NCBI GenBank assembly: GCA_020532085.1
Contig: JAJBAV010000001.1
Span: forward strand, 124,001 to 188,000
Direction of reading: 5' to 3'
DNA length: 64,000 nt
Source of the DNA: Candidatus Cloacimonadota bacterium
Lineage (GTDB): Bacteria; Cloacimonadota; Cloacimonadia; Cloacimonadales; Cloacimonadaceae
Shown: positions 27,067-31,316 of the stretch, piece by piece
Layout: every line of letters begins with the position of its first letter
How positions within the stretch are numbered: position 1 is the first letter of the stretch
The notes under the pieces: generated by a model
What the model saw: the letters and a program-made list of their open reading frames with translations, nothing else
Told to the model about the DNA's origin: nothing
Databases searched by the model: none
Made by a program: the position numbers and the translations under genes

Positions 27067-27363
27067 TCACTGTCACCTGTTTTATATAGTGAGGCCAAAC
27101 CACAGGAAAGGCCATATCAGTCAAGCAAATAATTGCCCAACGGGTTCAACGTGGCCGGGGAGGAAATCCAGTCAATGGTTCGGAAACCGGCAACGCGCGC
27201 AAGCCAAAAAAAATGACTTGACAAATATATGATACATTATATGGTCTGCGTGTATTAATGGACGTCGTCCAGATACAAGACACTGGGTGACTACGCCTTG
27301 TTTTATGGAACCCGGATGGGGCAAAGCTCTGTGGCGGGGTTTGCGTATTAGGGGGAGGAACCC
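27067..27363. other. divergent control region
   Basis: It separates the hydrogenase operon (leftward) from the nuclease-barrel gene (rightward). It holds one clear TTGACA box on the plus strand with AT-rich sequence after it, and no gene. I did not find a convincing -10/-35 pair for the leftward operon. Confidence 0.5.
27218..27244 (+). promoter_or_regulatory. possible promoter of the nuclease-barrel gene
   Basis: TTGACA at 27218-27223 followed by the AT-rich AATATATGATACATTATATG. The -10 box cannot be fixed: the best hexamers are 9 to 15 nt away, shorter than standard spacing. The leader to ATG 27364 would be about 110 nt. Confidence 0.35.
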
Positions 27364-29562
27364 ATGAAAAATACGCTGGTTGTCGCGGTCCTGCTATTTC
27401 TGCTCTGCGCTGGATTGGCCGCGCAGGAGATCACCACCCGGTCCTACGGTTCCCTGAAGCTCGCCACAGTAAATGTTTGGAGCGGCTCAGACTATCAGGG
27501 GCTGCTGGCTTTCGGTGAATGGGAAACGGAGGCGGTGAGGGAACAACGTTATCAAAACCTGGTCAACGAGCTGCGCCGGCTGAACCCGGACCTGCTTTTC
27601 CTGCAGGAGGTCAACCCCGTACGCGGCTACAGCAGGCGGATGGCCCAAGACCTGGGCCTGGATGAGATCCATCAGGTTTGCATCGGCGGGCTGAAGATCT
27701 TTGGGCTCGGCATCCCCAAGGGCTTCCAGGAGGGCAAAGCCATCCTGGCCAAACCAAAGCTGAAACTCAGCAAAACAGACGACTGGAAGCTCTCCGGGGG
27801 TCCGGGCATCTACTCCGACAATTTCACCTTCCATCTGGATGAGACCATCTCCGCCCTGGTTGGCCAGATCGTTTACCGGGATAAACCGATCAACCTGGTC
27901 TGTGTCCACCTCTCCGCCTATCCGGAGCTCAGCCCCGCGCTGCGGGACGAGCTGGACGCGCTGGCGCTGGCCGATTCGCTGACCACACTGGAGTACTGGG
28001 ATATTGTGGACAAATGGAACTCCGGACTCCGGCGGCGGGAGCGAGAAGCCCAACTCCTGCTGCAAAAGGTCTCCGGCCTGGAGGACGACGTGCCGCTGAT
28101 CATGGGCGGCGATTTCAACGCCACGCCCGGCTCCGACGCCATGCTCAGGCTGGCCGCGCTGGGTGAATTCACGGAAACCTCCATGGGCGGCAAGCCTTTC
28201 GTGACCTGGGACGCCGCGAACAATCCCAACACTCTGCCCAGCACGCTAAGGCAGGACGCCCGCGGCAACCCCAACACCCATTGGGAAAACTTCAACGCCC
28301 TCAACGCCGCCGTCAGCCGCCGCCTCGACTATCTCTTGCTCAGCGATGAGTTTGACCGCCGGGACATCCTAAGCCACCAGCCCTTCCTCAATGAACCCAG
28401 GGCTGGATCGCACCCCTCCGACCATTACGGCGTCTTCAGCGAGGTCAGCCTGGACCAAGCTCTGAGGGACGCGCCAGGCTTGTTCGATGCGATCCCCAAA
28501 CACGACAATGCCCAGATCAGCCTGCTGCCCATCGTGATGTACGACACGGACACCGGCTTCGGCTACGGCGTGAAGTCCTTTTTATGGAATCTGCTCCATG
28601 CCAACGAATCCTTTGATCTGATCCTCTTTCAGAGCACAGGTGGAGAACGCTGGTACAAGCTGGAATTTTCCCTGCCGGACCGGGAACTCCGCCAGCGCAA
28701 AAAGTACCCGCTGGCCGTGGACCTGAAGATCGACTACGACAAGTGGATCAACAACAACTTCTTTGGAGTCGGCTCCGGATCGAGTTTTGCCAACCGGGAG
28801 AAATTCACCAAAGAGCCTTTCGAAGTGCTGCTGAACCTCACCCATCCCTTCAGCCGCTATCTGAACGGTCAGCTCGGATTTCGCTTCAAGCACGTGAGCG
28901 CATACAACTACCTCCCCGGAAGGCTCCTGGACCAGTATCTGAACACGCCCGGCTCCCTCCGTGATCCTGAATCCGCCTACCTGAGCAACATCCTCAGCCT
29001 GCGCTACGACACCCGCGACAGCTTCAACAATCCCAGCCGCGGCTACGCCCTCCAGTATGACTTTGAAACCAACTGGCCGCAGCACAAACTGATGGAGAGC
29101 GTCTCCGCCAAAAGCCTGCAATTCGACTGGGGCGATGAGTTTTACTTTCTCCGCAATTCCCTCAGCGCCCAGTACTACACCGTGCTCTGGTATCCCAAAA
29201 CCGTTCTGGCGCTGCGTTTGCAGGGCCAACAGCAAAGCGGTGACAACACCCCTTTCCAGGCCATGCTCCCCCTGGGGGGAGGCACCACCCTGCGCGGGAC
29301 CCCGGCTGAACGCTATCTGGTGAACACCACCCTGGTGGGCAACGCCGAGATCCGCTTTCCCATCTACAAAGCGCTGGGAGGCGTGATCGGCTATGATGCC
29401 GGGATCGCGGCTGATTCGCCAGCTGAAGTTGACCTGGGCAAGCTTGCCTCCAATCCCGTGTTTGGCTTGCGGCTGTACCTCTACGGGATCATCGCCCGCC
29501 TGGATATCGGCCTGGGCAGGGACGCGATGGGGCTCTATTTCAATTTCGGCCACGCTTTCTGA
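27364..29562 (+). CDS. fusion of endonuclease/exonuclease/phosphatase domain and Omp85-type outer-membrane barrel
   Basis: 732 residues with a signal peptide (1-21). Residues 31-365 are an EEP-superfamily domain (DNase I/sphingomyelinase-like): TVNVWSG (Asn 37), LQEVN (Glu 82), CVHLSAYPE (His 182), GGDFNATPGS (Asp 250, Asn 252), RRLDYLLLS (Asp 322) and SHPSDHYG (Asp 353, His 354), so the catalytic set looks complete. From about 385 to the end is a barrel of the BamA/TamA family: RYDTRDSFNNPSRGY, the loop-6 motif GGGTTLRG (637-644), and a C-terminal phenylalanine. No POTRA domain is evident. It would place a metal-dependent nuclease or phosphodiesterase in the periplasm or at the surface. The substrate is unknown. 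Confidence 0.9.
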   Translation: MKNTLVVAVLLFLLCAGLAAQEITTRSYGSLKLATVNVWSGSDYQGLLAFGEWETEAVREQRYQNLVNELRRLNPDLLFLQEVNPVRGYSRRMAQDLGLDEIHQVCIGGLKIFGLGIPKGFQEGKAILAKPKLKLSKTDDWKLSGGPGIYSDNFTFHLDETISALVGQIVYRDKPINLVCVHLSAYPELSPALRDELDALALADSLTTLEYWDIVDKWNSGLRRREREAQLLLQKVSGLEDDVPLIMGGDFNATPGSDAMLRLAALGEFTETSMGGKPFVTWDAANNPNTLPSTLRQDARGNPNTHWENFNALNAAVSRRLDYLLLSDEFDRRDILSHQPFLNEPRAGSHPSDHYGVFSEVSLDQALRDAPGLFDAIPKHDNAQISLLPIVMYDTDTGFGYGVKSFLWNLLHANESFDLILFQSTGGERWYKLEFSLPDRELRQRKKYPLAVDLKIDYDKWINNNFFGVGSGSSFANREKFTKEPFEVLLNLTHPFSRYLNGQLGFRFKHVSAYNYLPGRLLDQYLNTPGSLRDPESAYLSNILSLRYDTRDSFNNPSRGYALQYDFETNWPQHKLMESVSAKSLQFDWGDEFYFLRNSLSAQYYTVLWYPKTVLALRLQGQQQSGDNTPFQAMLPLGGGTTLRGTPAERYLVNTTLVGNAEIRFPIYKALGGVIGYDAGIAADSPAEVDLGKLASNPVFGLRLYLYGIIARLDIGLGRDAMGLYFNFGHAF

Positions 29563-29735: not shown

Positions 29736-31316
29736 TTGACTAGATCCCACCCAAGAGAACCAAGCTCCAAATCGCAGTCCCCGGCCAAACATGGGCAGGC
29801 GGCCGGGATCGGCCTATTGCTGATCCTGCTCCTTCTCCCCCTCTTCGCTTTCGCCCAGGAGACAGGCTCCGCCAACGGCTATCTGCTGCTGCAGTGTGAG
29901 TTGCCCGGAGTGAAATACCAGATCAATGGCCGCGAATACGCCGAAGTTCAGTATCTGCCCCTGACCCCGGGTTCCTATCTGGTGCGGGCTTTCGGGGCCA
30001 ATCCGGTCACAGGCCCGTTTGAGGAGGACCGCCAGGTGGAGGTGAGGCTGGGGGAAACCACCCTCGAGCGCTTCGATTTTCCCCACGGCACCCTGAGCCT
30101 GATCAGCAACGAAGCCTACGCCCGCTTCACGATCGACAAGGCGAATCTGGGCCGGGTGGAAAATCTGCCCCTGCCACCCGGAACCTACACCGTTACAGCC
30201 GTTCTGCCCAAAGCCGTCACTGGTTTTGGCGATTACCGGATCTCGCGCCCGGTGACCATCCAAGCCGGGATCCACCTCGACCAGCGCATGGATTTCAGCT
30301 ATGGCACGGTTTCCATCAGTTCTTCGCTGGACGACACCAGGTATCTGATCGACGGCGTGGCCAAGAAGAAGGTGAACAAACTCAAACTCCCCGAAGGTGA
30401 ACACAGCTACACCGCCTTCCCGCCCGCGCCCTACACCTCGCGATCCGGCAGTTTCAGCATCCGCCCCGGCGAAGATCTGCCCATCGAACTGGAATTTGCC
30501 AAAACCCGCCAGATCAGCGACGCCGAAAAACGCCGCGAATACACCTGGCGCTTCGGATTGATGCCCGCCGCGGTGCTGGAGGCGAACCACTACTTCAGCC
30601 TCGGGGAAACCGGCCAGCCAGGCTACGCGCCGCTGCGCAACGGACTGTCGATCAGCGGCTTGCGCTTCAAGGCCATCAACCTCTGGCAAAAGGAATTCAC
30701 CCAACCTTACACCTCGCGCTATCCGGCCTTTATGCTGGGCGCCAGCCTGCTCGACCAAGCCGTCTTCACCTGGGAAAATGATCCCGCGGATTCCCTCCTG
30801 TTGTCCGGCATTCTGCTCGACCTCGCCAGCGTCAGCACTGGCTACGCGCATATATCGCCTGCCGGTTTGCTGCACGCGCAGCTTGAACTGATCGGGCATT
30901 TTTCCTATCAAAAACCGCTGGTGAGTGAGATCGGCTATTACTCCTTTGTGAACGCCTTCAAGGAGGGCGACGAGCGCAGCTACAGCGTTTGGGACTACCA
31001 GTGGGGCGGCGAAACCAGGCTGCAGATCGGCCTCCGCCTGGCCCAGTACAACTATCTGAACCTGCACTTTGGCGCGCGTTATCAACTGCCCTTGGAAGGA
31101 TACTGGTATTCAAACAACGATATCGCGGCCTGGATGACAGAGGATGGACCGCAGCCATTACCCAGTTCGCCGCCTGGCGCTCCGTCCCGTAACGCGGCTT
31201 TCGAGGGATTCAGCTTCTACGCCGGCATCGGCTTGGAAACCAATCTCATCCCCTCCCTGCTGGGCCTGCTGCTGGACAAAGCGGACAAAAGCGGGGCAAG
31301 TGACCTAATGGACTGA
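29736..31316 (+). CDS. PEGA-repeat envelope protein, barrel-like C-terminus
   Basis: 526 residues. A hydrophobic export segment (about 24-42, ending FAFAQE) is followed by three PEGA-type repeats of about 70 residues, each with a Y-x-I-(N/D)-G or equivalent turn and a PxGxYxVxA end (LPLTPGSYLVRAFG, LPLPPGTYTVTAVLP, LKLPEGEHSYTAFPP). Residues from about 265 on alternate aromatic and polar residues (YWYSNNDIAAWM, FYAGIGLETNL) and may be an outer-membrane barrel. PEGA repeats usually act in surface or peptidoglycan contacts. The start used is TTG 29736 with AAGGT about 9 nt upstream. No ATG gives an intact signal peptide, so the start is uncertain. It may be co-transcribed with the nuclease-barrel gene 173 nt upstream. 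Confidence 0.75.
   Translation: MTRSHPREPSSKSQSPAKHGQAAGIGLLLILLLLPLFAFAQETGSANGYLLLQCELPGVKYQINGREYAEVQYLPLTPGSYLVRAFGANPVTGPFEEDRQVEVRLGETTLERFDFPHGTLSLISNEAYARFTIDKANLGRVENLPLPPGTYTVTAVLPKAVTGFGDYRISRPVTIQAGIHLDQRMDFSYGTVSISSSLDDTRYLIDGVAKKKVNKLKLPEGEHSYTAFPPAPYTSRSGSFSIRPGEDLPIELEFAKTRQISDAEKRREYTWRFGLMPAAVLEANHYFSLGETGQPGYAPLRNGLSISGLRFKAINLWQKEFTQPYTSRYPAFMLGASLLDQAVFTWENDPADSLLLSGILLDLASVSTGYAHISPAGLLHAQLELIGHFSYQKPLVSEIGYYSFVNAFKEGDERSYSVWDYQWGGETRLQIGLRLAQYNYLNLHFGARYQLPLEGYWYSNNDIAAWMTEDGPQPLPSSPPGAPSRNAAFEGFSFYAGIGLETNLIPSLLGLLLDKADKSGASDLMD

Follow-up and report, generated by a model that had tools for sequence, protein, structure and literature searches.

Whether an EEP-superfamily enzyme has genuinely been joined to an Omp85-type barrel, and if so on which side of the outer membrane and on what substrate it would act, is the question raised by the open reading frame at 27364-29562 on the forward strand of the window (the whole stretch of DNA analysed, 64,000 nucleotides of a Candidatus Cloacimonadota genome). 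The frame starts with ATG and runs uninterrupted for 732 amino acids. An earlier note on this DNA had read it as a signal peptide, an EEP domain and an Omp85 barrel, and the profile searches bore this out. The Pfam EEP model PF03372 was matched over residues 34-354 along its full profile (1-225 of 225; E=2e-19; 70.7 bits against a curated cut-off of 24.5), and the Omp85 model PF01103 over residues 423-682 (E=1.2e-13; 51.8 bits against a cut-off of 24). The NCBIfam model Omp85_fam gave E=1.4e-24 and reached the end of its profile (423/423) at residue 732, with a score below its curated whole-protein cut-off. The LRG and YDAG motifs and the terminal Phe of the barrel were confirmed by index. The GC and GC3 of the fusion gene equal those of the adjoining genes, and the gene is present as a single copy in its own genome. 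Feature coordinates are collected in the table below.

Coordinates of the fusion gene features and of related or neighbouring loci in Cloacimonadota genomes
Feature	Locus	Position	Strand	Basis or remark
Sigma-70-like promoter match, TTGACA-16-TATGGT	Window	27218..27245	+	Divergent intergenic region; 10/12 positions, consensus scan
Sec signal peptide, residues 1-20, cleavage ~AA|Q	Window	27364..27423	+	Read from sequence; equivalent hydrophobic N-termini in homologues
EEP domain, residues 34-354	Window	27463..28425	+	PF03372 E=2e-19; invariant residues; domain model and Foldseek
Short linker, residues ~361-385	Window	28444..28518	+	Gap from the end of PF03372 to the start of homology to standalone barrels
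Omp85-type beta-barrel, residues ~386-732, terminal Phe	Window	28519..29559	+	PF01103, NCBIfam Omp85_fam, PDB profile matches
LRG, residues 643-645, Omp85 loop-6 (V/I/L)RG-type motif	Window	29290..29298	+	R644 and G645 invariant in family
YDAG, residues 677-680, FxDxG-type motif, Omp85 inner barrel wall	Window	29392..29403	+	D678 and G680 invariant in fusion family
Downstream ORF, 526 aa	Window	29736-31316	+	
Frameshifted subtype-A copy	G006:C42, L064	6712-8906		
Subtype-A remnant	G010:C144, L071	1-1640		
Subtype-B neighbour gene	G004:C66, L066	5442-6776		
Subtype-B neighbour gene	G006:C73, L067	82-1542		
Subtype-B neighbour gene	G029:C14, L068	6994-8430		
Subtype-B neighbour gene	G008:C133, L069	4500-5840		
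Open frame with Omp85 match	G000:C40, L115	1450-4575		

The consensus promoter scan found 2 matches where 0.9 were expected, and the match listed in the table is no more than suggestive. The signal peptide, as read from the sequence, contains no canonical lipobox. Neither a patatin domain nor PF00149, which we take to be the calcineurin-like phosphoesterase family, was matched by Pfam in the 732-aa protein. No Pfam match to a POTRA domain was found between the EEP domain and the barrel, and since the linker comprises only ~25 residues a POTRA domain is excluded. POTRA domains are not universal in Omp85 proteins; Heinz and Lithgow (PMC4104836) included subfamilies that lack them.

Six intact full-length copies, including that of the window, were found at 41-100% identity and in differing contexts; they are spread over two genera and five genomes of Cloacimonadota. 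The other five are uninterrupted, are 41-60% identical to the window protein, and come from G004 (two copies), G006, G008 and G029, the last of a genus other than that of the window. A seventh copy, on contig C42 of G006, is frameshifted near residue 450 so that its barrel lies in the next frame; this split copy is either a pseudogene or a sequencing error. In G010, just the last 92 codons remain at the same chromosomal site as other subtype-A copies (see below), flanked by a DRTGG-domain gene and a PEGA-like gene, with the remainder replaced by unrelated sequence through either gene loss or an assembly join. The EEP part is present in 5/125 genomes of the phylum and, the frameshifted copy apart, was not found without a barrel in any of the 125. 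The two damaged loci, and the fact that the related genomes are metagenome assemblies, are what could be said for an assembly or annotation artefact having joined two genes. This was the earlier note's own caveat, and it is extremely improbable: the join falls at the same place in all six uninterrupted copies, across both genera and varied contexts, and the EEP family never stands alone. Because two independent domain models agree with conserved full-length homologues, the fusion is not attributable to chance. It is real and rare.

When 84,980 species genomes were scanned with motifs of this exact family, matches were obtained in Cloacimonadota only. That scan reached close relatives of the fusion, and more distant EEP-Omp85 fusions may exist in other phyla or among unpublished database architectures. 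A phage search gave no match, and a plasmid search returned only an ordinary Bacteroides BamA/TamA-family protein.

The eight catalytic residues listed in the earlier note (N37, E82, H182, D250, N252, D322, D353 and H354) were checked by index and are all present at the positions given there. Together with LRG, YDAG and the terminal Phe they are invariant in the six full-length rows, Y677 and A679 excepted, and all catalytic residues of the EEP domain are likewise kept in the frameshifted G006:C42 copy. Catalysis by the EEP domain is likely to have been retained, given that no active-site residue differs between copies that diverge down to 41% identity.

An AlphaFold2 model of the EEP domain alone was obtained with a pTM of 0.73 and a pLDDT of 66. 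Foldseek matched it to TDP2 (best, E=2.7e-11), the Bacteroides EEP protein 3mpr, nocturnin and human neutral sphingomyelinase, which confirms the EEP fold of the model and not a substrate. PDB profile matches of the EEP domain were weak and mixed (nocturnin, TDP2, beta-hemolysin). Assignment of the domain specifically as a nuclease or as a sphingomyelinase was dropped, given these profile matches and the general EEP enzymes returned by Foldseek. No EEP subclass or defence link was obtained from NCBIfam, PHROGs or PADLOC, and a single-sequence PDB search returned nothing useful. The full-length AlphaFold2 model was built from only five alignment rows and had a mean pLDDT of 38, with ~20-35 in the barrel. 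A nine-row profile of the barrel matched 9ccg, a solved POTRA/Omp85 protein (E=6.6e-14), and the BamA structure 8xnb (E=7e-4). From these profile comparisons the C-terminal part can be assigned firmly to Omp85, and by sequence comparison its length and homology are compatible with a 16-stranded barrel.

Standalone barrels with the same start and length, each with its own hydrophobic N-terminus, were found in G080, G102 and G106 at 35-36% identity to the window barrel. No EEP gene adjoins them in these three genomes, as a split-gene arrangement would have it. In a maximum-likelihood barrel tree the seven fused barrels formed one clade (support 100/99), sister to the three standalone barrels (parent fork 100/100). 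Within it the fused barrels separated into subtype A (100/98) and subtype B (100/100). The standalone barrels are the nearest barrel relatives found, in a tree that did not include PlpD. We infer that an EEP gene was fused to a standalone barrel once, within the phylum, and that the fusion then diverged into two subtypes and was lost in a patchy manner.

The two subtypes also differ in their surroundings. Subtype A comprises the window copy, G004:C196, G006:C42 and the G010 remnant, and adjoins one and the same divergent DRTGG-domain gene at a variable site. On the far side, the three subtype-A genomes with the gene carry genes for tRNA nucleotidyltransferase, HemW and LepB (by synteny; names were given by eye from homology). 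The DRTGG gene occurs without the fusion in other members of the genus. The downstream ORF of the window, on the same strand as the fusion gene, encodes a signal peptide and weak Ig/PEGA-like repeats. It also adjoins the G010 remnant, and relatives of its C-terminal part lie beside the DRTGG gene in G001 and G003, without the fusion.

Subtype B comprises G004:C66, G006:C73, G008:C133 and G029:C14. In 4/4 loci the fusion gene lies tail-to-tail with a gene for a secreted protein of ~440 aa, with ~20-30 bases between the gene ends; three of the four genomes belong to one genus, so these linkages are not independent events. Close full-length relatives of this neighbour (57-79% identity to the G006 copy) were found in those 4 of 123 genomes only; the window genome lacks the gene. 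The neighbour has an invariant HxxxDxxxxxH motif, which we take to be that of the Zn-phospholipase C and P1-nuclease families. A Zn_dep_PLPC match was obtained with the G029 copy only (E=0.011-0.013, below the Pfam cut-off), and no PDB match was found. The neighbour resembles the Zn-PLC/P1-nuclease superfamily at a level below the Pfam threshold. More remote relatives make up the N-terminal portion of ~1,465-aa proteins whose C-termini carry type IX-like sorting domains.

Among known systems, Heinz and Lithgow (PMC4104836) listed ten Omp85/TpsB subfamilies, including patatin, PF00149 'metallo', WD40, lipoprotein and no-N-terminus types, none with an EEP domain. In the window genome, the open frame of 1042 codons on G000:C40 has an Omp85 match and an N-terminus that resembles, by eye, the WD40-Omp85 type. 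No description of an EEP-Omp85 combination was found in the open-access literature searched. The earlier statement that no class with an EEP passenger had been described thus stands for Omp85 proteins and needs amending more broadly, as SpmT/Rv0888 of Mycobacterium tuberculosis (TC 1.B.79) is a known fusion of an EEP enzyme to an outer-membrane pore. This protein, compared here by description, is reported to be a sphingomyelinase (PMC6712060; PMC4827864; PMC4733049) and also a nuclease (PMC4733049). It differs in that its pore is N-terminal, the opposite order, is not described as Omp85 and is placed in a separate TC family; the membrane is mycobacterial, and the protein is reported to be surface-exposed. 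CPn0300 of Chlamydia pneumoniae is an Omp85 homologue with claimed sphingomyelinase activity, but the claim came from a weak alignment and crude lysate assays, and the paper's own Pfam scan gave an IMPDH motif and no EEP domain (PMC3976853).

The 'metallo' subfamily likewise has a hydrolase domain (a metalloprotease in the paper) joined to an Omp85 barrel (PMC4104836), but its N-terminal PF00149 fold is unrelated to the EEP fold. Its presumed ancestor is a noNterm barrel (PMC4104836), and the same route would apply to EEP-Omp85: the standalone barrels described above are of this noNterm kind and differ in having no EEP domain, fused or adjacent. A further counterpart in design is PlpD (PL-Omp85, type Vd), which also has a signal peptide, an N-terminal hydrolase and a C-terminal Omp85 barrel in one chain. 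PlpD carries a patatin lipase where an EEP metallo-phosphodiesterase is found here, and it has a single POTRA domain between enzyme and barrel and dimerises, whereas the present fusion leaves no room for a POTRA domain. The EEP-Omp85 fusion proposed in the earlier note is upheld, and the surface placement that went with it is not supported.

Both ends of Omp85 barrels lie in the periplasm, and a 16-strand barrel with a periplasmic C-terminus has a periplasmic N-terminus too. The terminal Phe and the direct N-terminal join of the EEP domain to the barrel are compatible with this arrangement. PlpD was earlier thought to be surface-secreting, and Hanson et al. 2024 (PMC11116518) have since placed its patatin domain in the periplasm on the strength of protease, disulfide and lipidomic data. 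Because of this placement and the periplasmic N-terminus of Omp85 barrels, the EEP domain probably faces the periplasmic side of the outer membrane and not the cell surface. Display at the surface, where the enzyme, carried across the membrane by the barrel as proposed for type Vd proteins, would act on DNA or lipids outside the cell, is improbable. It would match the original view of PlpD (PMC11116518) and the reported surface exposure of SpmT/Rv0888 (PMC6712060; PMC4827864). However, the PlpD view has been revised, the mycobacterial outer membrane differs and the SpmT pore precedes its enzyme, and a folded EEP domain of ~35 kDa would need to be unfolded and passed through a narrow barrel. 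Less probable still is an Omp85 factor for protein assembly or translocation, with an EEP domain whose catalysis is dispensable and which serves as a binding module in place of POTRA. Most studied Omp85 proteins do assemble or translocate proteins (PMC4104836), and the L6 and FxDxG motifs are retained here; the invariance of all EEP catalytic residues down to 41% identity points instead to kept catalysis, Omp85 was matched at four further places in the window genome, one of which is BamA-like, and the fusion gene is patchily distributed.

The reading towards which we lean is an outer-membrane-anchored, periplasm-facing, metal-dependent phosphodiesterase, with a phospholipid headgroup as the most likely substrate and nucleic acids or nucleotides as its chief rival. 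The protein would be exported by Sec, and its C-terminal barrel would insert in the outer membrane and hold the N-terminal EEP domain at the periplasmic membrane face, as PlpD does its patatin domain; PlpD (PMC11116518) serves as a works-like model for such membrane-facing catalysis. The barrel would probably be an anchor, and export of the enzyme by it is not expected. The EEP domain would cleave a periplasmic phosphodiester or phosphate ester, most likely an inner-leaflet phospholipid headgroup. What tips the balance slightly towards a lipid headgroup is the tethering to the membrane, the analogy with PlpD and the gene that accompanies subtype B. Counted against it, the best Foldseek matches are DNA-processing TDP2 enzymes and not lipases. 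Tentatively, the protein may be an EEP phospholipase C-type enzyme, tethered periplasmically, that remodels or recycles Cloacimonadota outer-membrane phospholipids, with a Zn-PLC-like partner in one subtype. A nucleic-acid or nucleotide substrate is a serious alternative, which the structural matches and the neighbour motif fit nearly as well. It is possible, if doubtful, that the enzyme is a periplasmic membrane-tethered nuclease or nucleotidase, by which incoming DNA, RNA or nucleotides are degraded for phosphate and nucleoside scavenging. The EEP superfamily consists largely of nucleases and phosphatases, TDP2 and nocturnin are the best structural matches, and the HxxxDxxxxxH motif of the linked gene is presumably common to the Zn-PLC and P1-nuclease families. 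The double activity of Rv0888 (PMC4733049) would also suit a nuclease, but an outer-membrane tether suits lipid substrates better, and inspection by eye and partial Pfam searches revealed no recognisable gene for nucleic-acid uptake or salvage beside any fusion copy.

On the preferred reading of a periplasm-facing phosphodiesterase, EEP is an unrelated fold that joins the few catalytic domains known from Omp85 barrels (patatin and the PF00149 metallo-hydrolase). This lends support to the view that the barrel, besides its part in protein assembly and secretion, has been co-opted to anchor enzymes to the outer membrane on its periplasmic side. The standalone sister barrels offer a plausible pre-fusion ancestor, and with the gene of the window and related copies one could ask whether fusions of this kind have inner-leaflet lipids as substrates.
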